From: Hyalangium versicolor
GTDB lineage: Bacteria > Myxococcota > Myxococcia > Myxococcales > Myxococcaceae
DNA length: 64,000 nt
Direction of reading: 5' to 3'
Assembly: GCF_020103695.1 (NCBI RefSeq)
Contig: NZ_JAHXBF010000007.1
Coordinates: 186,001-250,000 of the forward strand
Below, piece after piece: positions 1 through 18,076 of this stretch; positions within the stretch are counted from its first letter, which is position 1; each line of letters starts with the position of its first letter. Made by a program: the position numbers and the translations under genes. The notes beneath the pieces are model-generated. The model was not told the DNA's origin. It worked only from the letters and a program-made list of their open reading frames with translations, and did not search any database.

Positions 1-2270
1 ACTGGCTCACTCCTCGCCAGCACCAGCCTCTTCCCACTGACGGCAAGGGCGGTCCCAACTCCCTGGACTCCGAGCGCACCGTCTCCGTCTCTCTCGAGCC
101 TGAGGACACCAAGCTCCTGCTTCAGGAGGTCCCCTCCGCCTACCACGCTCAGATCAACGACGTGCTGCTCACCGCTCTGGCTCAGAGCGTTCTGCCATGG
201 GCCGATGCAGACTCCCTCTGGGTCGACCTGGAGTCCCACGGCCGTACAACCCTCTTCCCAGAGGTCGACCTGTCTCGCACCGCGGGCTGGTTCACCAGCG
301 TCTACCCCGTGCGCCTGGATCTGGCCCAGAACGCCTCGCCGGCTCAGGCCTTGCGCTCGGTGCGCGACACCCTGCGGCGCGTGCCCAACCTGGGCCTGGG
401 CTACGGAGTGCTGCGCTACCTCTGCCAGAATGAGTCCGCTCAGGATCTGCGTGCCCTGCCCCCCGTCCAGATCGCCTTCAACTACCTGGGCCAGGCCACC
501 ACCGGCGCCGAAGCCGATGCCCTCTTCGGCTTCACCCAGGAGCCCACCGGGCCTGCGCACTCCACGCGCGGCAACCGCAATCACGTCCTCGTGATTGATG
601 GCATCGTCGTGCGCAACGCGGAGGGCAGCCAGCTGCGCCTGTCCTGGACCTACAGCGAGAACCTCCACTCACGCGAGACCATCGAGACTCTCGCGAACCA
701 ATTCCTCGACGCGCTCCGCGAGCTCATCACCCAGCGCAAGTCCTTGGACGCCTCTCGCTACATCCCCTTGGACTTCCCGCTGGCCCGCGTCACGCAGCCC
801 GAGCTCGATCACATGTTCCCCCCGGGCGCCGCCATCGAGGACATCTATCCCCTGACTTCCATGCAGCGGGAGATGAGCTACGAGACGATCCTGGATCGCA
901 CCTCCACCGTCTACCTGGTGCAATCGCACTGGCGCTGCTACTCGCCGCTGGATCTCTCCGCCTTCCGAGTGGCCTGGACGGCGGTGGTCGAGCATCACCC
1001 CGCCCTGCGCACCGGCATCGCCGCGGAGGGTTTCAAGGAGCTGCACCAGGTCGTCTACCCGCAGCCCACGATGCCCTGGCAGGAGCACGACTGGCGCGGC
1101 CTGCCGCCGCAGGAGCAACAGGCGAAGTTCGAGGCGTTCCTCCGAGAGGACTACGATCACGGCTTCAACCTGTCCCGCGCTCCGCTCATGCGCGTGGCCG
1201 TGCTGCGCCTGAAGGAGCACGTCTACCAGATCGTCTGGACGCACCATCACGTCACGTTGGACGGGTGGTCCATGAGCGTGCTCTTCCAGGACGTCTTCTC
1301 CGCATACAAGGCGCTCGTCAGCGGCCAGCCGCCGCGTCTGAAGCCGAGCGCGCCCTTCCGCGAGTACATCGCCTGGATCCGGAAGCAGAACCAGGCGGAG
1401 CTCGAGGCGTGGTGGAGAAAGACACTCCAAGGCCTGACGGAGCCCACTCCCGTGCCCGGAGACAAGGGGCCGGGCCATTATTCCCAGGGACAGCCGGTCA
1501 TGGGCGACCAGAGCCTCTGCCTCTCGGAAGAGGCCACGGCGTCGCTGCAGTCCTACGCCCGGCGGCACCAACTGACGCTCAACACGCTCATCCAGGCGGC
1601 CTGGGCCCTGCTGCTGGGCCGTCACGCCGGCACGCAGGAGGTCCTCTTCGGCGCCGTGTCCTCCGGCCGTCCCGCGGAGCTGCCCGGCGTGGAGCGGATG
1701 ATCGGCCTCTTCACCACCTCGCTCCCGATACGCATCGCCCTGCCCGGCAACATGGACCTGCTGACGTGGCTCCAGTCCATCCAGGCGCAGCAGATCGAGC
1801 TGCGCCAGTATGAGCACGTCGACACCTCCCGGCTCCATGGGTGGAGCGAGCTGCCCGAGGGCTCCTCGCTGTTCGAGAGCGTGCTGGTCGTCGAGAACTT
1901 CCCTCTGGAGGGGACGCGCGAGACGCAAGCCTCCTCGAAGGAGGCGATCTCCCAGGCCCAGGCGGACGGCGCGGCCCGGCTCGTCGAGCACATGCGCACC
2001 TCCAGCGGCCTGGACGTCCGGGACTTCCACGCCACGGTGATGCGGCTCACGTTCCCGCTGATGCTCACGGTGCTCCCGCAGTCGGAGCTCTTCCTCCACA
2101 TCGCCTACCAGAGCGCTCGCTTCGAGCCGGAGACCATCCAGATCATGCTCGAAGCCCTGCGCGCCACCCTGGAGAAGCTGCCCCACTGGTCCACGGAGCC
2201 GGTCTTGGAGCTCGCTCCCGGGCTGCCTGAGCAGAACCTCCTCCCCGCGAAGACGAAGGCATCGGCATGA
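1..2270 (+). CDS. NRPS C-terminal part: epimerization domain then a terminal condensation domain (5' truncated)
   Basis: The reading frame is open from the window edge (first full codon at base 3), so the N-terminus lies upstream; about 755 residues are visible. The first ~215 residues carry late epimerization-domain motifs: NDVLLTALAQ, ESHGRT, RTAGWFTSVYP, PNLGLGYG and FNYLGQ. Next comes a complete condensation domain starting near YPLTSMQ, with HHPALRTG, the catalytic HHxxxDG intact as HHVTLDG (bases 1245-1265), and FTTSLPIRI. An E domain followed by C implies a D-donor-type condensation domain. The protein ends about 75 residues after the last C motif, with no adenylation, carrier or thioesterase domain. 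The stop overlaps the next start as ATGA, so it is coupled to the exporter gene. The peptide product cannot be deduced. Confidence 0.93.
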   Translation, partial: WLTPRQHQPLPTDGKGGPNSLDSERTVSVSLEPEDTKLLLQEVPSAYHAQINDVLLTALAQSVLPWADADSLWVDLESHGRTTLFPEVDLSRTAGWFTSVYPVRLDLAQNASPAQALRSVRDTLRRVPNLGLGYGVLRYLCQNESAQDLRALPPVQIAFNYLGQATTGAEADALFGFTQEPTGPAHSTRGNRNHVLVIDGIVVRNAEGSQLRLSWTYSENLHSRETIETLANQFLDALRELITQRKSLDASRYIPLDFPLARVTQPELDHMFPPGAAIEDIYPLTSMQREMSYETILDRTSTVYLVQSHWRCYSPLDLSAFRVAWTAVVEHHPALRTGIAAEGFKELHQVVYPQPTMPWQEHDWRGLPPQEQQAKFEAFLREDYDHGFNLSRAPLMRVAVLRLKEHVYQIVWTHHHVTLDGWSMSVLFQDVFSAYKALVSGQPPRLKPSAPFREYIAWIRKQNQAELEAWWRKTLQGLTEPTPVPGDKGPGHYSQGQPVMGDQSLCLSEEATASLQSYARRHQLTLNTLIQAAWALLLGRHAGTQEVLFGAVSSGRPAELPGVERMIGLFTTSLPIRIALPGNMDLLTWLQSIQAQQIELRQYEHVDTSRLHGWSELPEGSSLFESVLVVENFPLEGTRETQASSKEAISQAQADGAARLVEHMRTSSGLDVRDFHATVMRLTFPLMLTVLPQSELFLHIAYQSARFEPETIQIMLEALRATLEKLPHWSTEPVLELAPGLPEQNLLPAKTKASA

Positions 2271-3907
2271 AAGAGCTGCTGCGGCTCATCTCGAGCTCCA
2301 GGCGCACCGCGATCCTGTCACTGCTCCTGGGCGTCGTCTCAGGAGCGTGCGGAGCGGGGCTGATCTGGCTCATCAGCGACACCCTCAGCCGAGACTTCAC
2401 CTCCACGGGCTACCTGTTCGCCGCGGTCGCGCTCTTCTCGTTGCTGACGCGGATCGCCTTCATGAGCCTGCTGAGTCGGCTTCAGCAGGGAGCGATCTTC
2501 AACCTGCGACGGCACCTGAGCCGCCGCATCCTGGCAACCCCCCTGCGCATCCTCGAAGAGGTGGGGACCCCGCGCCTGCAGGCGACGCTGACAGCGGACA
2601 TCTTCGCTCTCGGCGAGGGGCTCCGCCTCTTCCCCTCGTTCTTCATCAGCCTCACCAGCGCGGTGGGCTGCCTCGTCTACCTGGCATGGCTCTCGTGGTC
2701 CGCCTTCCTCGCCCTGCTCGCCTTCGGGACGCTGGGAGTCCTCAGCTACTGGCTCCCCACCCAGAGCGCGGTCCGCGTCTCCGAGCGAGCCCGCGCGAGA
2801 GAGGATGATCTGTTCAAGTACATCCGCTCGCTCACCGAGGGCGCCAAGGAGCTGGGGCTCAACCAGTCGCGGCGCAAGGCCTTCCTGGCCGAGTGCCTGG
2901 ATCCCACGGCGGATGATCTGCGCCGCTTCACCGTCCGCACCCACGACATCTACGGCGCCACCTCGAGTTGGGGCCTGTTCCTCTTCTTCCTGCTCATCGG
3001 GCTGGTGCTCTTCGTCCTGCCCCACTTCAGCCAACAGAGCGTGCGCGTCCTGACCGGCTATGTCTTCGCGATCCTCTACCTGCAGCAGCCGCTGGCGGGC
3101 ATCCTCGAAGCGCTCCCAGCGCTGAACCAGGGAGGGGTGGCCCTGCGGAGGATTCAATCGCTGGGGCTGGCACCCGCCACCGAGCCCGCCGGGCCACACC
3201 TCCTCCCAGCCGGGGAGGCCACTCCGGCGTTCCAGCACCTCTCCCTGAACGCCGTCACCCACGCGTATCACCGCGAGCAGGAAGACGATCGCTTCACCCT
3301 GGGGCCTATCGATCTCTCCCTGCGCCAAGGAGAGCTCGTCTTCTTGATTGGCGGCAATGGCAGCGGCAAGACGACGCTCGCCAAGCTCATCACCGGCCTC
3401 TATGCCCCCGAGGGGGGAGAGCTCCGCCTCAACGGCAAGCTCATCGCCCACGAGAACCGCGAGGAGTACCGCCAGTACTTCTCGGCTGTCTTCTCGGACT
3501 TCCACCTCTTCGAGAGCCTGCTCGGCGCCCCGTCGGATCCCGAGACGCTGGCGCGCATCCAGGGCTACCTGACCCGGCTCCACCTCGACCGCAAGGTGCG
3601 CATCACCCAGGGCCGGTTCTCCACGACCAGCCTCTCACAGGGTCAGCGCAAGCGGCTGGCGCTGCTGGCCTCTTACATCGAGGACCGGCCCATCTATGTC
3701 TTCGACGAGTGGGCCGCGGATCAGGATCCGACCTTCAAGGCGGTCTTCTACGAGGAACTCCTGCCCGAGCTGAAGAGCCAGGGCAAGACGGTGCTCGTGA
3801 TCACCCACGACGATCGCTACTTCCACATCGCCGATCGCATCCTCAGGCTCGAAGCCGGCAAGCTGGTGTCTCCTCCCCCAGCGCTCGGCGTCCAGAACTT
3901 CGCATAG
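2267..3907 (+). CDS. Cyclic-peptide/siderophore-type ABC exporter (SyrD/PvdE family), fused membrane and ATPase domains
   Basis: This 546-residue half-transporter has an N-terminal membrane domain with six hydrophobic segments within residues ~10-290, followed by one nucleotide-binding domain. Walker A is GGNGSGKTT (near residue 362), the signature is LSQGQRKRL (near 455) and Walker B is IYVFDEW. The DEWAADQDP continuation is characteristic of the cyclic-peptide exporter family (SyrD, PvdE) rather than MsbA-type exporters. It starts by ATGA overlap with the NRPS gene, so it most likely moves the NRPS product or its precursor across the inner membrane. The beta-hydroxylase gene follows after 8 bp. 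Confidence 0.93.
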   Translation: MKELLRLISSSRRTAILSLLLGVVSGACGAGLIWLISDTLSRDFTSTGYLFAAVALFSLLTRIAFMSLLSRLQQGAIFNLRRHLSRRILATPLRILEEVGTPRLQATLTADIFALGEGLRLFPSFFISLTSAVGCLVYLAWLSWSAFLALLAFGTLGVLSYWLPTQSAVRVSERARAREDDLFKYIRSLTEGAKELGLNQSRRKAFLAECLDPTADDLRRFTVRTHDIYGATSSWGLFLFFLLIGLVLFVLPHFSQQSVRVLTGYVFAILYLQQPLAGILEALPALNQGGVALRRIQSLGLAPATEPAGPHLLPAGEATPAFQHLSLNAVTHAYHREQEDDRFTLGPIDLSLRQGELVFLIGGNGSGKTTLAKLITGLYAPEGGELRLNGKLIAHENREEYRQYFSAVFSDFHLFESLLGAPSDPETLARIQGYLTRLHLDRKVRITQGRFSTTSLSQGQRKRLALLASYIEDRPIYVFDEWAADQDPTFKAVFYEELLPELKSQGKTVLVITHDDRYFHIADRILRLEAGKLVSPPPALGVQNFA

Positions 3908-3915
3908 GAGTCGTC

Positions 3916-5505
3916 ATGCCGCAGCCCATGTATCTGAAGCAGAACGTCGCGTTGGAGCCCCTCTACAATCAGTGGTACGCGTGGTGGTACCTGATCCCTC
4001 CCCAGACGGCGCCCATGTTCGTGGCGCAACTGCACACGCGGATCATGCAGTCCTTCGTGGCTGCCCCGGATATTCACGTCGCGGCGCTGAAGAACCCAGC
4101 TCTCATGGGCGGGCCCTACATCAACTACCCCGCGGACAGGGCCAACGAAGTCAAACTCCTCCTGGAGAAGACGCAAAAGGAGCAGGCCGCCTCGTACCAG
4201 TTCGTGGAAGCGCTGGCGGAGTTGGACAAGATGCTCCTGGCGTCCACGGGCCACTCCCTCGAGAGCCTCTATCCGAAGGTCCCCGACATCCTCCGCGGCT
4301 ACGTGGAGCTGACGTACGATCTGAACAACCGCGCGACCGCCCGCTTCATCGAGCCGCTGCTGTACCACAGCCCCCACTACCGCGAGTCCTCGCAGAGCAT
4401 GCTGCTGCGGACCATCGACAAGGACGCGCGCTCCTACATCTTCAGCACTCCGCGACTGGACACGGACGGCGGCATTCACCTGCACCTCCCGTTCCGCCAC
4501 GAGGGCGTGGATGCGCTGTTCGCCATGCGCAAGCAGCCGGGCTCTGTGGATGCCATCCGCGAGAAGCTGGGCATCGGCGCGGCGGACGAGAAGACATTCT
4601 CCACCTTCTTCACGGAGGAGCCGCCGCGCGCGGCTCCCCGCTACGACGGAGAGGGCGTCCGGCTGCGCTATTTCGGCCATGCCTGCCTGCTCATCGAGTC
4701 GAAGGACGTGAGCATCCTCACGGATCCCGTGGTCAGCTACGACTTCCCCACGGATCTTCCTCGCTTCACCCATGCGGATCTGCCGGAGCGGATTGACTAT
4801 GTCCTGATCACCCACGGCCACGCCGATCACCTCATGCTGGAGACGCTGATTCCCTTGCGCGGCCGTATTGGCACGATCATCGTGCCGCGCAGCACCGGTG
4901 GCTCCCTGGCGGATCCCTCCCTGAAGCTGCTGCTGCGCAACGTGGGCTTCCCCCGCGTGATCGAGATCGAGGATCTGGACTCCCTCGAGATCCCAGGAGG
5001 CTCACTGACGGGGTTGCCCTTCCTCGGTGAGCACGGCGATCTCAACATCCGCGCCAAGACGGCCCACCTGATCCGGCTCCAGGGCCAGTCCATGCTGATG
5101 GCCGCGGACTCGAACGCCATCGAGCCCCGCGTTTACGATCATGTTCAGCGGGTGGTGGGGAAGATCGATGCCCTGTTCCTCGGCATGGAGAGCGAGGGCG
5201 CGCCGATGAGCTGGATGTACGGGCCTCTGCTGCACACCCCGCTGCAGCGCAAGATGGACCAGTCGCGCCGGCTCAATGGCTCGAACGGCGAGCGGGGCAT
5301 CGAGATCGTCAAGCGGCTGCATCCCAAGCACGTGTACGTCTACGCCATGGGACGCGAGCCCTGGCTGAGCCACGTGATGGTGATGGGCTACACCGAGACG
5401 TCTCCGCAGCTCATCGAGTCCCGCAAGCTGCTCGACTACTGCCGGGAGCAGGGGCTCACCGCCGACATGCCCTTCATCCGCAGCGAGCTCTTCCTGGGCC
5501 GCTGA
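3916..5505 (+). CDS. CmlA-like diiron beta-hydroxylase with metallo-beta-lactamase fold, NRPS tailoring
   Basis: The start is ATG 3916, 8 bp after the exporter; the longer open frame upstream runs through the exporter gene and is not used. The 529-residue protein has an N-terminal alpha-rich half (residues ~1-245) and a C-terminal metallo-beta-lactamase-like half with THGHADH. CmlA of chloramphenicol biosynthesis (about 532 residues) hydroxylates a carrier-bound amino acid at the beta carbon. Its iron ligands, recalled as His305, His307, Asp309, His310, Glu377 and Asp403, have counterparts here at a constant offset of five: His300, His302, Asp304, His305, Glu372 and Asp398. The length, two-part layout and position in an NRPS operon agree. 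The inferred role is beta-hydroxylation of an aminoacyl thioester on this assembly line. The main alternative is an MBL-fold hydrolase of unknown substrate. Confidence 0.8.
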   Translation: MPQPMYLKQNVALEPLYNQWYAWWYLIPPQTAPMFVAQLHTRIMQSFVAAPDIHVAALKNPALMGGPYINYPADRANEVKLLLEKTQKEQAASYQFVEALAELDKMLLASTGHSLESLYPKVPDILRGYVELTYDLNNRATARFIEPLLYHSPHYRESSQSMLLRTIDKDARSYIFSTPRLDTDGGIHLHLPFRHEGVDALFAMRKQPGSVDAIREKLGIGAADEKTFSTFFTEEPPRAAPRYDGEGVRLRYFGHACLLIESKDVSILTDPVVSYDFPTDLPRFTHADLPERIDYVLITHGHADHLMLETLIPLRGRIGTIIVPRSTGGSLADPSLKLLLRNVGFPRVIEIEDLDSLEIPGGSLTGLPFLGEHGDLNIRAKTAHLIRLQGQSMLMAADSNAIEPRVYDHVQRVVGKIDALFLGMESEGAPMSWMYGPLLHTPLQRKMDQSRRLNGSNGERGIEIVKRLHPKHVYVYAMGREPWLSHVMVMGYTETSPQLIESRKLLDYCREQGLTADMPFIRSELFLGR

Positions 5506-7875: not shown

Positions 7876-9945
7876 TCAATTCACCGTGAACTCGCGCGAG
7901 TACCCCGTATAGGGGCGGATAAGCCCATCCCAGCCCGACTTCCAGTCGCCGTCATGCCGGATGCGATAGGTGCCGGGCGTCGCGGTGGAGGGGATCTTCC
8001 ACTCGATCGTCACGTGCGAGCACGCCAGCGTGGGCACGCAATTGTTGCGCTCCCAAAGATATTTGGTCTCCCAGTCCCAGTCGTACGCCACCGTCACCCA
8101 CGAAGAGCCGGACTTGCGCTGCACCTGCAGGAACGAGCCCTGCCTGTGCAGGTTGTTCTTCGGGTGGCCGCCCCAGAACTTCACCGTCACCGTCTGCCCT
8201 CGCGTGTACGAGGCGTTGGCGTTCGTCACCACGCTGCCGAAGTCCACCCAGAGCAGCTTGTCGTCGAACACCACGCCCGTCTGCAGCGTCGTCTGCTCGT
8301 TGCGCAGATCCCGAGGCGTGGGGCCCGCCGGCACCGAGGTGCCATCGCGCAGCGCCGCCGCCAGCTTCTCCGTCTCCTGCTGCACCGCGCCCAGTGTCCA
8401 CGGCCCGAAGTGCGTCGAGGCGCCCTCGTAGTCCTGCTTCGCGTACTCCTCGCGCGTGGCCAGGTAGCCCGCGTACGCGTTGGAGAGCCCCGCGATGACC
8501 ACCTGGTCCACGCCGATAGGAGCCAGCTGCGTCAGCACGGCCTGGCGCAGCCGCCGGCCCGACATCGTCGTCATCTCGAAGGGCACCGCCACCAGCGCCA
8601 GGTTCCCCAGCGTCACCACCTGCAGCGGCAACACCTCGGGCGTCCACGGGTACGGCGTCATGCTCCCCATCTCCAGCACGATGGGCTTCTCGCCCTGGCA
8701 GGGCTTGGTCGTCACCGCGCAGGTGAAGGCGCTCCACAAGTCGTGGATCTGCGCGCAGCTTGCGCCCTCGCTGCCGTAGCCCGGTCCGTCCTCGGCACCT
8801 GCGAGCATCGAGATGCCAATGGCCGCCGTGCACGTGGTGCGCGCCGTGCCCCCTCCGTACTGCGGTGCCACCTGCACCGCGTCCATCTTCACGTGCGTGT
8901 GCCGGTAGTCCACCGCGCCCGTGAGCAGCGTGGATGCACCATCATAGAGGGACTTCGCCAGAGTGTACTGCTTGCTGCCGGAGAGCTCCGTGCTCTCGAT
9001 GTCGTTGGCGCCGCCGCCGTTGGTGCCGCCGTAGATGTTGGGCGTCACGTCTCCCTCGTTGCTCTGGGCGAAGGCGGCCACGAACGTCTTGGAGGCCAGG
9101 TAGTCCGCCCCCTTGGCCTTCTCGAAGAGGTAGGAGGCGTAACCCTTGTTGTCTCCGCTGATGAGCCGGTTGTCGTTGCCCATGGACGTGCCGTGCACGG
9201 CGAACCAGTTGAGCTCACCCACCTCTGTTCCATCCGTGCCCTGCATCCGCAGCAACGTCATCTTCTTGTCCGTGTCGTAGGCGAACTGGCTGCGCTCGGT
9301 GGCGGGGTTGAGCTGGTACGCCTCCGGTGAACGGTTGGTGCTCGTGTTGAGCAGGTCCCCCGAGTTGATGCGGATGGAGCCGGGCACCAGGTTGGTGTGC
9401 GCCCGGACGATGGCCTGGACGATGCCGTCCACGATGGCCTCGAAGTTCTGCTGGTCGTAACCGAGGATCGTCAGGTTGTAGAGCGCGTAGTGCGAGAAGC
9501 CTCCCGGCCCGCTGTGCGTGTGCGTGGCGCTCAGCAGCACGTTCGCGTCCGAGTAGACCGTGCCGTAGCGCGCCTGCAGCCGCTCCACCACCTGCTGCTT
9601 CACGCCCTGGAAGATCTGCCCCAGGTCCGCGCTGACGAACGCCACGCGCTTGCCGTTACACGGCGAGGCGATGACGAAGGCCCGCGCGCGCAGCCGCTGG
9701 TGGATGCCCGCCGTCTTCTGGTCCACCATCGCGTAGCCCATCATCCCCAGCTCCGCCGCCGGGCCGGTGATGTCGTAGATGCCCGAGCCCACCTGGAAGG
9801 ACGTGTTGCCCGCGCATGGGCCCGTCAGTCCGGCTTGCTGTGTGGCAACACTGTCCGGAGGCTCGCCCTCCGGGAACTCCGAAGAACAGGCCCCCAGAGT
9901 GAGGACCAGGACTCCCAGGAGCGCGACACGAGACGTTCTCTGCAT
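7876..9945 (-). CDS. Neutral/alkaline ceramidase-like lipoprotein
   Basis: About 689 residues. The ATG at 9945 is preferred over 9951 because GGTGGGGGG sits 6 bp before it but directly abuts the earlier ATG. The N-terminus has a lipobox (TLGAC), so the protein is probably anchored to a membrane facing the periplasm or cell surface. The neutral ceramidase fold is recognised by SGIYDITGPAAELGMMGY near the start, the metal-site motif HTHSGPGG, HGTSMG, and the active-site loop SNEGDVTPN, followed by a C-terminal beta-sandwich. Family members cleave ceramide to sphingosine and fatty acid. The loop normally reads GDVSP with serine as nucleophile; here it is threonine (codon 9043-9045), so activity is uncertain. 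The substrate could be host, prey or self sphingolipid. Confidence 0.88.
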   Translation of the reverse strand: MQRTSRVALLGVLVLTLGACSSEFPEGEPPDSVATQQAGLTGPCAGNTSFQVGSGIYDITGPAAELGMMGYAMVDQKTAGIHQRLRARAFVIASPCNGKRVAFVSADLGQIFQGVKQQVVERLQARYGTVYSDANVLLSATHTHSGPGGFSHYALYNLTILGYDQQNFEAIVDGIVQAIVRAHTNLVPGSIRINSGDLLNTSTNRSPEAYQLNPATERSQFAYDTDKKMTLLRMQGTDGTEVGELNWFAVHGTSMGNDNRLISGDNKGYASYLFEKAKGADYLASKTFVAAFAQSNEGDVTPNIYGGTNGGGANDIESTELSGSKQYTLAKSLYDGASTLLTGAVDYRHTHVKMDAVQVAPQYGGGTARTTCTAAIGISMLAGAEDGPGYGSEGASCAQIHDLWSAFTCAVTTKPCQGEKPIVLEMGSMTPYPWTPEVLPLQVVTLGNLALVAVPFEMTTMSGRRLRQAVLTQLAPIGVDQVVIAGLSNAYAGYLATREEYAKQDYEGASTHFGPWTLGAVQQETEKLAAALRDGTSVPAGPTPRDLRNEQTTLQTGVVFDDKLLWVDFGSVVTNANASYTRGQTVTVKFWGGHPKNNLHRQGSFLQVQRKSGSSWVTVAYDWDWETKYLWERNNCVPTLACSHVTIEWKIPSTATPGTYRIRHDGDWKSGWDGLIRPYTGYSREFTVN

Positions 9946-9990
9946 GTTCATCCCCCCACCGCGAATCGCGGCAGTCGAAGCGCGGAGAAA

Positions 9991-12475: not shown

Positions 12476-15400
12476 ATGCCAGACGAACTGCTCGAGATTC
12501 ACCGGTGTCGGCACTTCGTGCTTCGCAGGACGACGAGGGATGGAGCCGCGGTCGTGCTCAAGTCCCTCCGCGAGTGGATCCCGTCCCCGCACGCGGCCGC
12601 CCTGATGCATCACGAGCATGCCGTGCTGCGCAGGTTGGACGTGCCCGGCGTCGTGCGGCCACTCGCGCTCGAAGGACCGAAGGAGCTCCCGACACTCGTG
12701 CTCGAGGACGCCGGAGGCGAGGATGCCGAGCAGCGGCTCCGGGCCGGGCCCTTTCCTCTCGATGCCTTCCTCGATATCGCGCTCGCGCTCGCGGACACCT
12801 GCACGCTGATCCACGCCAGGGGTGTCGTCCACAGAGCGCTCTCTCCCGCTCGCGTGGTCCTTGGGAGCGCAGGGAAGGTCACCCTCGTCCACTTCAGTGA
12901 CGCCTCCACGCTCACCAGCATTCCCGGACCGCTCGACATCGAGTCAGCTCACCGGCTGGCATGGATCTCCCCCGAGCAGACGGGGCGAATGAACCGGCTC
13001 GTCGATTGGCGCTCGGACCTCTACTCCCTGGGAGTCACGCTCTACGCGATGCTCGCGGGCGCACCGCCCTTCCGTTCGGCGGATCCCCTCGAACTCATCC
13101 ACGCGCACCTGGCCCGCCTGCCGGTGTCAGCCTCGATCGTCAACCCGCGCGTGCCACCCCTGCTCTCCGCCATCGTGCAGAAGCTGCTCGCGAAGATGCC
13201 GGAGCGGCGCTACCAGAGCGCGGAGTCCCTTGCCTCTGATCTACGCGAGGCACGGCGGCAATGGCTCGCGTCCCGGACCATCGAACCCTTCGAGCTGGGC
13301 CGGCTCGACCTCGCCCGGGAACTGCCGCTGCCCAAGCGCCTGTATGGGCGCGAGGACGAGCTCGCCCTCCTCCTCAAGGCCTTCGCCCGCGTCTCGAGCC
13401 AGGGCTCCGAGCTCGTACTCGTGGCGGGAGAGGCGGGCGTGGGCAAAACAGCGCTCGTCGAGGCCGTGCGAGACGAGGCCGTCACCCAGGGAGGACGCTT
13501 CGTCTCGGGAAAGTTCGACCTGCGCGCGGCCAACGTGCCGTATGCGTCGGTCCTGGAGGCACTCCGCGCCCTGGCCCGCTCGCTCCTGTCCGAGCCCGAG
13601 GAACTCCGAGCGCAAGAGCTCCAGCGGATCCGCGAGGCGGTAGGCCTGAGCGGCCGCGTGCTGACGGAGCTCGTCCCAGAGCTGCAAGACATCTTCGGTG
13701 ACATGCCAGAGGTTCTCCCGCCCAGCCCCGCGGAGCGGGAGACGCGCTTCCACCTCACGCTCCGGGTGTTCGTGAGGGCCGTGGCCGCGAGCCGTCCCCT
13801 CGTGATGTTCCTGGATGATCTGCAATGGGCCGACGCGGCGTCCCTGCGAGTCTTGCGCTCGCTCGTCCTGGACGTGGAGAACCGGAACCTGCTGCTGCTC
13901 GGTGCGTTCCGCCCTCGGCAGGTCGACTCCGCGCACGCCCTGACGCGCACGCTCGATGAGTTCCAGCGAGTGGGCGCCGCTGTCACGCGGCTGGACCTCG
14001 GTCCCCTGAGTCTCGAAGCGCTGGTGGCGCTCCTCGCCGACGTCCTCCGCTGCGAACCGGAGCGAGCAAGACCCCTCGCGGAGTTGATCTCTTCCAAGAC
14101 CGCTGGCAATCCCTTCTTCATCCAGCAAATCCTGCGCTCACTGCAGCGCGACGGGCTGCTCGTCTTCGAGGAGTCACAGGGCACGTGGACATGGGATCTG
14201 CGCCGGCTCGAGCGGGTCGGGATCACCGAGAACGTGGTCGAGCTGATGACGACGGTCATCCGCGGATTGTCCGGGGAGGCGCAACAGCTCCTGCAGATCG
14301 CCGCATGCGTTGGCAAGCGCGTGGAACTCTCCTTGCTGGCGGCCGTGTGGGGCAGACCGGTCGACGAGGCCACCACGCGGCTGGGCGAGGCACTGCGAGA
14401 GGGGCTGCTCGTTCCCGATGACGCATCCGGCCCCAAGGGTCAGCTCGGCTTCCGCTTCGTCCACGACCGTGTGCAGCATGCAGCGTACACGCTCCTCTCG
14501 GAGGACCGGCGCAAGGAGCTCCACCTGAGAATCGGCCGCGCCCTGCTCGGGTCCCGGCGCGACGAAGAGCTCTCGGTGGAGTTGTTCGACATCGCCGACC
14601 AGCTCAACCTGGGCGCGGAGCTGCTCACCCAGGATGAGCGGATCGACCTCGCTCGAATGAACCATCGCGCTGGCAACAGGGCCCGGAGCTCCGCGGCCTA
14701 CGGGCCGGCGCTCGCCTACTTCCGGATGGGGATCCTCCTCCTCCCGCGGGGAGCATGGGAGGCGCACCACGAGCTGGCGTTCTCGCTCCACCGCGACGCG
14801 GCCGAGTGCGCCTATTTGACGGGGGATCATCCGCTGTGCGGCACGCTGGTCGAAGAGGGGCTCCGCCATGCCATCTCACTGCTCGAGAAGGCGGAGCTCC
14901 ATGGCATCCACATCATGAGCGCGACGACCTCGGGAGACTTCAGGACGGCGTTCCAAGGGGGAAGCGAGACCTTGCGAGCCTTGGGCGTGGAGCTGCCCCT
15001 GGAGGATCCCGACCGTGCTCTGAAATCGGAGCGCGCGGCCATCCGGACACTGCTCGCGAGTCGCGCCCCGCTAGAGCTGCTCGACGCGCCAGGGGTATCC
15101 ACCGCCGAGGAAGGAGCCTGCGCGAAGCTGCTCTCGATCATGCTACCGGCGACCTACTTCTTCGAGCCCGGTATCTATGCCCTCGTGACAGCCAGGACCA
15201 TCCGCTTCGCCCTCGAGCACGGCCAGAGCGTTCATGCCACCACGGCGTATGCCACCTATTCCTTCTTCCTGGCGGTCACGGGCGAACTCGTGGAGGCCGA
15301 GGGGTTCATCTGTCTCGCCCTGGCGCTGGCTCGAAAACACGGCGACACCGGGCGTGAGGCCGAAGCCCTCGGCATCCATGCGTACCTCTGTCCGTGGCGA

Positions 15401-18076
15401 CAGCCGCTCGCCTCCTGCGTGGCCGATGCCTCGCATGCCTTCATGCTGGCGTCCCGAACCGGTGAGTTCAGGACCGCCTCCTATGCCCTCTCGCAGGTCT
15501 TTCTCACCTCCTTCGCCTCGGGCCGGGAGCTGGATCGGATCCTCGCGGAGCTCGATGAAGGCATGTCGTTCTGCCGCAGGGTCGGCAGCCAGGGGACGCT
15601 CCTCTATCTCACCACCTACCGTCAGGCGATTCGCTGCCTCAAGGGGCTCACGCGGGGCCGGAGCTGCTTCGATGATGCCGACTTCGACGAGCAGGCATTC
15701 CTCGCCGCCACCCGGAACAACAAGACGACGCAGTACCGGTACAGCATCCTCCGCCTCCAGAGCACGTACCTGTTCCGCGACTTCGCTGCGGCTCGCACCT
15801 GGTCCGAGATCCTACACGGCCAGCTCCACCCCCTGGTGGGCTACGTCTACTTCATCGAAGGCACGTTCCTCATGGCGCTGACCCTGCTCGTGCTCTGCGA
15901 GGGTGCCAAGACCGAGGAGCGGGCGGAGCTGCTGACCCGCGTGGAGAGCCTGAAACACGGCCTCCAGCAACGAGGGGAGGGCTGTGCCGAGAATACGCGC
16001 CACAAGTGCCTCCTCGTGGAGGCGGAGCTCGCCCGGCTGGAGGGACGCTTCCTCGATGCCGCCGGCCTCTACGATGAGGCCATCGAGGCGGCGGCGAAGC
16101 TGGGATTCCTTCAGGATGAGGCCCTGGGCAACGAGCTCTGTGGGCGCCTGTACCGCGCGCTCGGCCGGCGCCGCGTCGCGGAGCTCTACCTCCGCTCGGC
16201 CATGCAAGGCTGGGCTCGCTGGGGAGCATTGGGCAAGGCCCGCGCTCTCGATGACGAATTCGCCCTGGGTGGAGGACTTCCAGGCCTGGGCGTCCCGGTG
16301 GAGAGCGCTCATCGAGTCGCGCTCGATGCACTCAGCCTGCTCAAGGCGGCGGAGACCATCTCGAGCGAGATCGTGCTCACCCGCCTCCTCGGAAAGCTGA
16401 TGGAAGTCTGCATCCAGGCCGCAGGAGCCGAGCGGGGCGTGCTCGTCTTCGAGGAGGAGGGCGGGCCGTTCGTCCGGGCGATCGCGCGGGCTGGGGAGAC
16501 CGCGACCACCGAGCGGATCCCCCTCGCCGGAGCGAAGCAGCTCCCTCGCAGGCTCATCGAGCACGTCCGCAGGTCACGGAAGCTCCTCGTCCTCGACGAT
16601 GCATCCGGGGATCCGGCCTTCGTGTCCGAGCCCTCCCTGGCCCAGGGCCATGTGAAATCGGTCCTCGTGCTCCCCATCCAGCGAAAGGAGTCCCTGCTCG
16701 GCACGTTCTTGTTCGAGAACGATCTGACGACCCACGCCTTCACGCAGGAGCGAGTGCGGGTGCTGGAGCTCCTGTCCGCCGAGATCGCCATCGCGCTCGA
16801 GAACAGCCTGCTCTTCGAGAAGCTCAAGGTGGAGGTCGAGGAGCGAACGCGTGCGGAGGAAACCGTCCGCTTCCTGGCCAACGTGAGCAAGGTGCTCGCC
16901 GAATCGCTCGATTACCCCACGACACTGCGGAGCCTCACGGGGCTCATCGTCCCGACGGTCGCGGAGTGGTGCATCATCGATGTCGTCGAGGAGACGGGGA
17001 AGATCCGCCGCGTGGCGTGGAACCACTCAGATCCCACGAAGGCCTGGGTGCTCCGCGCGCTCGAGGAGCGGGCCGCGCCTGACTGGAGCTCACCCCAGCC
17101 GTCGGTCCGCGCCATGCTCTCCGGGCAGCCGGTCCTCGTGCCGCAGCTCACCGAGAGCCTGGTCGTCACCCACTCCCGGGATGCCGAGAACGCCCGGCTC
17201 GTCCGAGAACTCGCGACGCGCAGCTTCATCGCCGTGCCCCTGATCGCTCGTGGCAGGACACTGGGAGCGATCACCGTGGGCTCCTCCAACGCGCGGCGCG
17301 CCTACGGGCCGTCGGATGTCACCTTCGCCGAGGAGCTGGCCCGCCGCGCCGCGATGGCCGTCGACAACGCGCGGCTCTACCAGGAAGCCCAGGAGGGGAT
17401 CCGCGTCCGCGAGGAGTTCCTCGGAATCGCCGCCCACGAGCTGAAGACCCCGATCACCACGATGAGGTTCACCCTCCAGGCCTTCTTTCGAAGGCACGAG
17501 CACCTCCCCGAGCAGCACCTCGGCAAGGTCCTCCGGACGACGGAGAAGCAGCTCGATCGGCTCCTGCATCTGGTCAACGAACTGCTCGAAGTCTCTCGGC
17601 TTCACGCGGGGTACCTCGACCTCCAGCGCGAACAGGTCGACCTGTCAGCGGTGGCGCATGAGGTGGTGGAGTACTTCGCCGCGCGCATCGCGCAGAGCGG
17701 GTCGCAGGTGGGGCTCCGCGCCCCCGAGCCCGTCGTGGGGATATGGGATCGCAGCAGGCTGGAGCAGGTGGTCGCCAACCTGCTCGACAACGCCCTGAAG
17801 TTCGGTGCGGGCAAGCCTGTCACCCTCGCCGTGGCACGCAGGGACGGCATGGCGCGCCTCGTGGTGGAGGATCACGGCATCGGGATTCCGCCCGAGCGTC
17901 TGCCCCACGTGTTCGAGCGCTTCGAGCGCGCGGTGTCGACACGGCACTACGGGGGCTTCGGGCTCGGGCTCTACATCGTGCGGAGCATCGTGGAGGCGCT
18001 GGGAGGCACGGTCCACGTGAAGACCCAGCCAGATGAGGGCTCGACCTTCACGGTCGAGCTGCCGTGTCACACGTAG
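12476..18076 (+). CDS. Giant signalling protein: degenerate Ser/Thr kinase, AAA-type ATPase, TPR-like region, two GAF domains, histidine kinase
   Basis: The 1866-residue protein starts at ATG 12476 after GGGGGGAG. Order: kinase-like domain (~1-265), STAND/AAA ATPase (~280-600; Walker A GEAGVGKTA near 320, Walker B VMFLDDLQWAD), a long helical TPR-like region (~700-1270), GAF1 (~1285-1430), GAF2 (~1465-1630), HisKA (AAHELKTP, His near 1653) and HATPase (NLLDNALKFG, DHGIGIPP, FGLGLYI). The kinase domain keeps the lysine (VVLKSL) and the late SPEQTGR and RSDLYSLGV motifs. However, the HRD..N loop reads HRALSPARV and the DFG position reads HFSD, so both catalytic aspartates are lost. The family is common in myxobacteria as trifunctional kinase/ATPase/histidine kinases. 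No response regulator is adjacent. Its last 10 bp overlap the convergent VWA gene. Confidence 0.9.
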   Translation: MPDELLEIHRCRHFVLRRTTRDGAAVVLKSLREWIPSPHAAALMHHEHAVLRRLDVPGVVRPLALEGPKELPTLVLEDAGGEDAEQRLRAGPFPLDAFLDIALALADTCTLIHARGVVHRALSPARVVLGSAGKVTLVHFSDASTLTSIPGPLDIESAHRLAWISPEQTGRMNRLVDWRSDLYSLGVTLYAMLAGAPPFRSADPLELIHAHLARLPVSASIVNPRVPPLLSAIVQKLLAKMPERRYQSAESLASDLREARRQWLASRTIEPFELGRLDLARELPLPKRLYGREDELALLLKAFARVSSQGSELVLVAGEAGVGKTALVEAVRDEAVTQGGRFVSGKFDLRAANVPYASVLEALRALARSLLSEPEELRAQELQRIREAVGLSGRVLTELVPELQDIFGDMPEVLPPSPAERETRFHLTLRVFVRAVAASRPLVMFLDDLQWADAASLRVLRSLVLDVENRNLLLLGAFRPRQVDSAHALTRTLDEFQRVGAAVTRLDLGPLSLEALVALLADVLRCEPERARPLAELISSKTAGNPFFIQQILRSLQRDGLLVFEESQGTWTWDLRRLERVGITENVVELMTTVIRGLSGEAQQLLQIAACVGKRVELSLLAAVWGRPVDEATTRLGEALREGLLVPDDASGPKGQLGFRFVHDRVQHAAYTLLSEDRRKELHLRIGRALLGSRRDEELSVELFDIADQLNLGAELLTQDERIDLARMNHRAGNRARSSAAYGPALAYFRMGILLLPRGAWEAHHELAFSLHRDAAECAYLTGDHPLCGTLVEEGLRHAISLLEKAELHGIHIMSATTSGDFRTAFQGGSETLRALGVELPLEDPDRALKSERAAIRTLLASRAPLELLDAPGVSTAEEGACAKLLSIMLPATYFFEPGIYALVTARTIRFALEHGQSVHATTAYATYSFFLAVTGELVEAEGFICLALALARKHGDTGREAEALGIHAYLCPWRQPLASCVADASHAFMLASRTGEFRTASYALSQVFLTSFASGRELDRILAELDEGMSFCRRVGSQGTLLYLTTYRQAIRCLKGLTRGRSCFDDADFDEQAFLAATRNNKTTQYRYSILRLQSTYLFRDFAAARTWSEILHGQLHPLVGYVYFIEGTFLMALTLLVLCEGAKTEERAELLTRVESLKHGLQQRGEGCAENTRHKCLLVEAELARLEGRFLDAAGLYDEAIEAAAKLGFLQDEALGNELCGRLYRALGRRRVAELYLRSAMQGWARWGALGKARALDDEFALGGGLPGLGVPVESAHRVALDALSLLKAAETISSEIVLTRLLGKLMEVCIQAAGAERGVLVFEEEGGPFVRAIARAGETATTERIPLAGAKQLPRRLIEHVRRSRKLLVLDDASGDPAFVSEPSLAQGHVKSVLVLPIQRKESLLGTFLFENDLTTHAFTQERVRVLELLSAEIAIALENSLLFEKLKVEVEERTRAEETVRFLANVSKVLAESLDYPTTLRSLTGLIVPTVAEWCIIDVVEETGKIRRVAWNHSDPTKAWVLRALEERAAPDWSSPQPSVRAMLSGQPVLVPQLTESLVVTHSRDAENARLVRELATRSFIAVPLIARGRTLGAITVGSSNARRAYGPSDVTFAEELARRAAMAVDNARLYQEAQEGIRVREEFLGIAAHELKTPITTMRFTLQAFFRRHEHLPEQHLGKVLRTTEKQLDRLLHLVNELLEVSRLHAGYLDLQREQVDLSAVAHEVVEYFAARIAQSGSQVGLRAPEPVVGIWDRSRLEQVVANLLDNALKFGAGKPVTLAVARRDGMARLVVEDHGIGIPPERLPHVFERFERAVSTRHYGGFGLGLYIVRSIVEALGGTVHVKTQPDEGSTFTVELPCHT

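Follow-up and report, generated by a model that had tools for sequence, protein, structure and literature searches.

The last gene of a lipopeptide operon in Hyalangium versicolor most probably encodes a stand-alone CmlA-type diiron β-hydroxylase that belongs to this operon (probability about 0.87). The operon ends at position 5505 of the window, by which we mean the whole 64,000-nucleotide stretch analysed (C79:186001-250000 of the genome). The CmlA-type assignment, already proposed in an initial annotation, is supported by an N-terminal CmlA domain, the metal ligands, the predicted whole-length fold and linkage to an NRPS, all of which agree. The enzyme is an ordinary additional member of an already known family. 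From the sequence, our best prediction for the product is a β-hydroxylated lipotripeptide, and we infer that the peptide carries a β-hydroxylated residue. The source genome record lists 6.92% contamination, which we counted against this explanation.

Domains, metal ligands and predicted fold

The reading frame runs from an ATG to a stop codon, is open throughout, and has exactly the coordinates first annotated (Table 1). Its 529-residue product has the two-part layout that had been noted from the sequence, with a CmlA_N domain followed by a metallo-β-lactamase (MBL)-fold domain. The CmlA_N match (PF18456) spans model positions 1-232 of 232 (295 bits, E = 3.4e-88), and NCBIfam gave one weak match (35 bits vs. 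a cut-off of 144). Among solved structures, the protein is most similar to FrsH (448 bits, 40.7% identity over the alignment) and to three CmlA chains (420-421 bits, 40.9% identity). Scores of this size for the domain, FrsH and CmlA exclude a chance match.

Table 1. Features of the operon's 3' part, in window coordinates unless a contig is given.
Feature	Position	Strand	Basis
Synthetase, 3' end in window; start about 18.1 kb upstream	1..2270; C79:167880-188270	+	Pfam, segment searches
Terminal condensation domain, HHVTLDG kept, after last epimerisation domain	837..2180	+	Pfam, segment searches
Cyclic peptide export ABC transporter	2267..3907	+	TIGR01194, 476 bits, cut-off 286
AGGAG, likely ribosome-binding site of cmlA	3906..3910	+	Sequence
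cmlA, CmlA-type diiron β-hydroxylase (most probable reading), 529 aa	3916..5505	+	Frame, Pfam, similarity, predicted model
CmlA_N domain, residues 6-236	3931..4623	+	Pfam
MBL-fold domain, Pfam matches over residues 249-423	4660..5184	+	Pfam
HGHADH ligand motif, residues 300-305 (H300, H302, D304, H305)	4813..4830	+	Sequence, alignment
Glu372, counterpart of CmlA Glu377	5029..5031	+	Sequence, alignment, 5kil title
Asp398, counterpart of CmlA Asp403	5107..5109	+	Sequence, alignment

The initial annotation had placed an HxHxDH motif at residues 300-305, with Glu372 and Asp398, each five below the number of its CmlA counterpart. In the translated frame the motif reads HGHADH, and both acidic residues are where they were expected. 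The six ligands align with positions 307, 309, 311, 312, 379 and 405 of CmlA chain 4jo0 (534 residues), whose residue count is presumably higher by 2 than the literature numbering. The offset of five holds because the chain of PDB 5kil, titled ‘E377D mutant’, has Asp exactly opposite Glu372. We then drew on 97 stretches, consisting of the window region, 36 loci and 60 stretches taken by place, the last being a choice from the CmlA_N matches of the genome survey. These supplied 105 CmlA-type open reading frames with a minimum length of 480 aa; the 95 distinct ones, together with FrsH and CmlA, gave an alignment of 97 rows. None of the 97 rows, which include FrsH and CmlA, departs from the six ligands or from E425. 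At position 301, 65 rows have G and 7 have the N of CmlA and FrsH; HGHADH is thus an ordinary spelling among the myxobacterial members.

A structural model predicted from an alignment of the window protein with 29 locus proteins (30 sequences) had a mean pLDDT of 90.4 and a pTM of 0.92. Its top Foldseek match was FrsH (TMq 0.96, rmsd 1.7), followed by the CmlA entries 5kik (TMq 0.92), 4jo0 (0.93) and 5kil (0.91), each over more than 500 columns. The predicted protein therefore superposes on both enzymes over its full length, with the ligands coinciding in the sequence alignment, which is the outcome that the initial annotation had looked for. Plain MBL proteins covered part of the model, with TMq at or below 0.38 among the best 50 rows.

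These results bear on the alternative that the protein is an MBL-fold hydrolase, acting in self-protection or on thioesters, that resembles CmlA in its metal motif alone. The HGHADH spelling is that of many MBL hydrolases; Pfam MBL models match the protein; and phmmer also returned NAPE-PLD and UPF0173 hydrolases (E = 1e-6 and 1e-5). However, the best hydrolase reached about 31 bits, vs. 421-448 bits for CmlA and FrsH, and G at the second motif position is common within the CmlA-type family (65 of 97 rows). We rejected this reading, which we consider very improbable, on the complete N-terminal domain and on the whole-length match of the predicted fold to FrsH and CmlA. A closer kinship to MBL hydrolases, which had been raised as a possible objection to the CmlA-type assignment, was accordingly not what we found.

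Both solved enzymes share architecture, ligands and predicted fold with the window protein, and they differ from it in detail. FrsH (FR900359 biosynthesis, PDB 8a90) reads HNHQDH in the alignment and acts on Leu, whereas the window enzyme is predicted to act on an aromatic residue or Asn. The motif of CmlA (chloramphenicol biosynthesis, PDB 4jo0, 5kik and 5kil) differs from HGHADH at two non-ligand positions, and its substrate is given as p-aminophenylalanine in PMC5061366.

The operon and its predicted product

The NRPS-exporter-cmlA operon is real. The genes lie on one strand, the exporter's start codon (ATG, from 2267) runs into the NRPS stop codon (2268-2270), giving the two genes a 4-base overlap, and 8 bases separate the exporter end at 3907 from cmlA, so that the NRPS operon named in the initial annotation stands. 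The full order is MbtH (a match at C79:167358-167504, just upstream of the synthetase), FAAL-PKS-NRPS, cyclic-peptide exporter and cmlA. The synthetase is one intact frame of 6796 aa with the order FAAL-ACP-KS-AT-KR-ACP-C-A-T-C-A-T-E-C-A-T-E-C; its start consists of an AMP-binding and a DIP2-like AMP domain, which we read as FAAL-like. Domain searches of the synthetase found no thioesterase after the terminal condensation domain. The first two adenylation domains are 90.3% identical and the two epimerisation domains 93.6%, which suggests a recent module duplication. That cmlA is no longer active or expressed, and survives in the operon as a relic, is the least probable reading of all, given the intact cmlA frame with every ligand kept, its ribosome-binding site and the intact synthetase frame.

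Downstream, a cytochrome P450 gene (5536-6903, minus strand) is convergent with cmlA and has below-cut-off NCBIfam matches to terpene-oxidising P450s; we did not count it in the cluster. The window also holds a neutral/alkaline ceramidase gene (7876-9951, minus strand; full-length Pfam matches, NCBIfam equivalog below cut-off) and a gene for an 1866-aa protein (12476-18076, plus strand) joining a Ser/Thr kinase domain, an AAA ATPase, GAF domains and a histidine kinase.

Our own script extracted the adenylation codes DACTIAAVCK, DACTIAAVCK and DLTKIGEVGK, which we take, from published codes, to denote an aromatic residue (Phe/Tyr-like) twice and Asn. In the route that we propose, a fatty acid activated by the FAAL-like domain would prime the synthetase, a ketoreducing PKS module would extend it once, and three residues would be added: an aromatic one, an aromatic one that is then epimerised, and Asn, epimerised in turn. 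The hydroxylase would bind two irons through H300, H302, D304, H305, E372 and D398, activate O2, and place one oxygen on the β carbon of an amino acid bound to one of the upstream synthetase's carrier domains. Hydroxylation would precede condensation, as reported for FrsH, whose authors infer that it occurs on the carrier before acylation (PMC7794379). The chain would probably be released through the terminal condensation domain and then exported by the transporter.

Hydroxylation could plausibly fall on an aromatic or on an acid/amide residue; we put an aromatic residue at even odds and consider Asn a somewhat less likely choice. Among 17 CmlA-neighbouring regions, 13 had a DLTK-type (Asn/Asp) code and 9 the aromatic code DA[CSAW]T.AA.CK, but these regions were picked by hand, include several near relatives, come without a background rate and in some cases contain two NRPSs or part of one, so that we drew no conclusion from them about the hydroxylated residue. 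The literature search returned nothing on a diiron enzyme for nonribosomal hydroxyasparagine. In chitinopeptins (Bacteroidetes), CmlA-like features split over two genes are proposed to account for β-hydroxy Asp, Phe and Ile (PMC9248904).

The closest published arrangement that we found is the kasumigamide cluster. As described in PMC5061366, KasD is a CmlA-like protein of 529 aa proposed to make phenylserine, and KasC ends in C-A-PCP-E-C-A-PCP-E-C without a TE, next to a cyclic peptide transporter. The window operon has in common with it a CmlA-like gene (529 aa in both, a likeness by published description, not by sequence), the transporter, and an NRPS with an E-C end and no TE. Kasumigamide, however, is described with an A-KR-PCP phenyllactate starter, a PKS module in mid-cluster and three core genes, whereas the window synthetase is a single gene with a FAAL-like start, then ACP and KS-AT-KR, whose last code is that of Asn and in which the A-KR-PCP starter does not occur. 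A kasumigamide-like ending also appears in a relative (loci L086 and L149, G007:C1:6061500-6100999), with the order KS-AT-KR, two aromatic-code modules, C after the last A, exporter and cmlA.

We could not match the lipopeptide to a known product. The cystomanamides, described in a review as linear myxobacterial lipopeptides with β-OH-Asn and β-OH-Phe (PMC9581180), were ruled out by module order, TE and FkbH: their order there is Asn-Asn-Phe-glycerate-Tyr, with FkbH and a TE, unlike that of the window synthetase.

Relatives with and without an adjoining NRPS

Of the 96 genomes of the family, 63 have CmlA_N; the count is likewise 63 among the 147 of the class, and none of 14 control genomes has it. 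The same Hyalangium genome has a second CmlA-type gene at C13:571606 (L072, G000:C13:562000-581999), which is 53% identical and lies among PKS and NRPS domains. We built a quick-type tree and draw nothing from its placement of the CmlA, FrsH, L041 and L130 rows, which have long branches. A row was counted as NRPS-linked if an A, C or FAAL match lay in its stretch on either strand. The set that contains the window gene (30 rows, SH-aLRT 98) comprises 20 NRPS-linked rows, 9 whose flank is too short to judge and 1 with no such match. Next to it, a set of 37 rows (support 100) includes 22 of the 23 PPTase rows, together with 9 NRPS-linked rows, 3 with short flank and 3 without. Many close relatives of the window enzyme lack an adjoining NRPS. 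The statement in the initial annotation that this gene marks the kind of product proved too strong, as members of the same clade stand beside NRPSs with very different codes and the sister clade often stands beside none. A record titled Comamonas sp. KCTC 72670 (L029), whose CmlA-type gene with its PPTase locus is placed by the tree among the Myxococcus rows, is probably mislabelled or contaminated.

These neighbourhoods bear on a further alternative, in which the window enzyme is a true CmlA-type hydroxylase that acts in trans on a different synthetase, or else hydroxylates a free amino acid. In its favour, neither an A nor a C domain lies within about 8-10 kb of the sister-clade gene in 24 of 27 genomes, and the Hyalangium genome has additional PKS-NRPS genes, such as those at C13. 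Action on a free amino acid finds support in the proposal of the makas authors that free Phe, hydroxylated before loading, is the substrate of MakasD, made because MakasC-A2 accepted threo-phenylserine (PMC5061366). Against both forms of this alternative stand the overlapping or closely spaced NRPS, exporter and cmlA genes, the NRPS-linked rows of the window gene's own tree set, and FrsH, which made hydroxyleucine in vitro with its own NRPS module (PMC7794379). We therefore regard this alternative as improbable for the window enzyme, and retain a hydroxylase dedicated to its operon.

The sister clade was followed in one stretch from each of 27 genomes (G053-G079, flanks about 7.7-10.4 kb) of a genus (g19) that we infer to be Myxococcus with Pyxidicoccus. 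At one such locus (L013, 9992-16030) the neighbours are an APS kinase (cysC), a CysN-like GTPase, a PAPS-reductase-family (CysD-like) protein, a thioesterase-family protein, taken as type II, and a PPTase. All 27 genomes have the CmlA-type gene, cysC, the thioesterase and the Sfp-type PPTase, and 17 have cysN. Between the CmlA-type gene and the PPTase, which are 1.5-6.2 kb apart, lie the thioesterase and cysC; the CmlA-type enzymes are 64.2-66.7% identical to the window protein. No C-domain match occurred in any of the 27 stretches and no A-domain match in 24, the exceptions being G057, G058 and G073. In 19 of the 27 genomes this gene is the only CmlA_N match. The distance between a CmlA_N gene and the PPTase is about 28-29 kb in G018 and G029 (g6, probably Corallococcus).

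We tentatively suggest, while thinking it somewhat doubtful, that the Myxococcus enzyme is a shared, trans-acting β-hydroxylase of the core genome that has one helper locus in common with the Sfp-type PPTase and a type II thioesterase and serves unlinked NRPSs, and that it could explain the β-hydroxyvaline of myxoprincomide. The origin of that residue is stated as not identified, and a P450 as not found in the corramycin cluster, in the corramycin paper (PMC10099666). Titles and abstract openings, mostly outside subscription journals, named no CmlA-type gene at a PPTase locus; where myxoprincomide and CmlA occurred together, CmlA was the name of an efflux pump, and the tag MXAN_3485 was absent among the literature matches listed.

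For the window gene, our reading predicts that this myxobacterium makes a β-hydroxylated lipotripeptide, probably released by a condensation domain, and points to the modules concerned. The orphan sister gene outside the window is the more interesting lead, as a concrete candidate for β-hydroxy residues that have no assigned hydroxylase, as reported for myxoprincomide and corramycin. If the suggestion of a shared enzyme is true, the window enzyme would be the cluster-dedicated cousin of a trans-acting hydroxylase.
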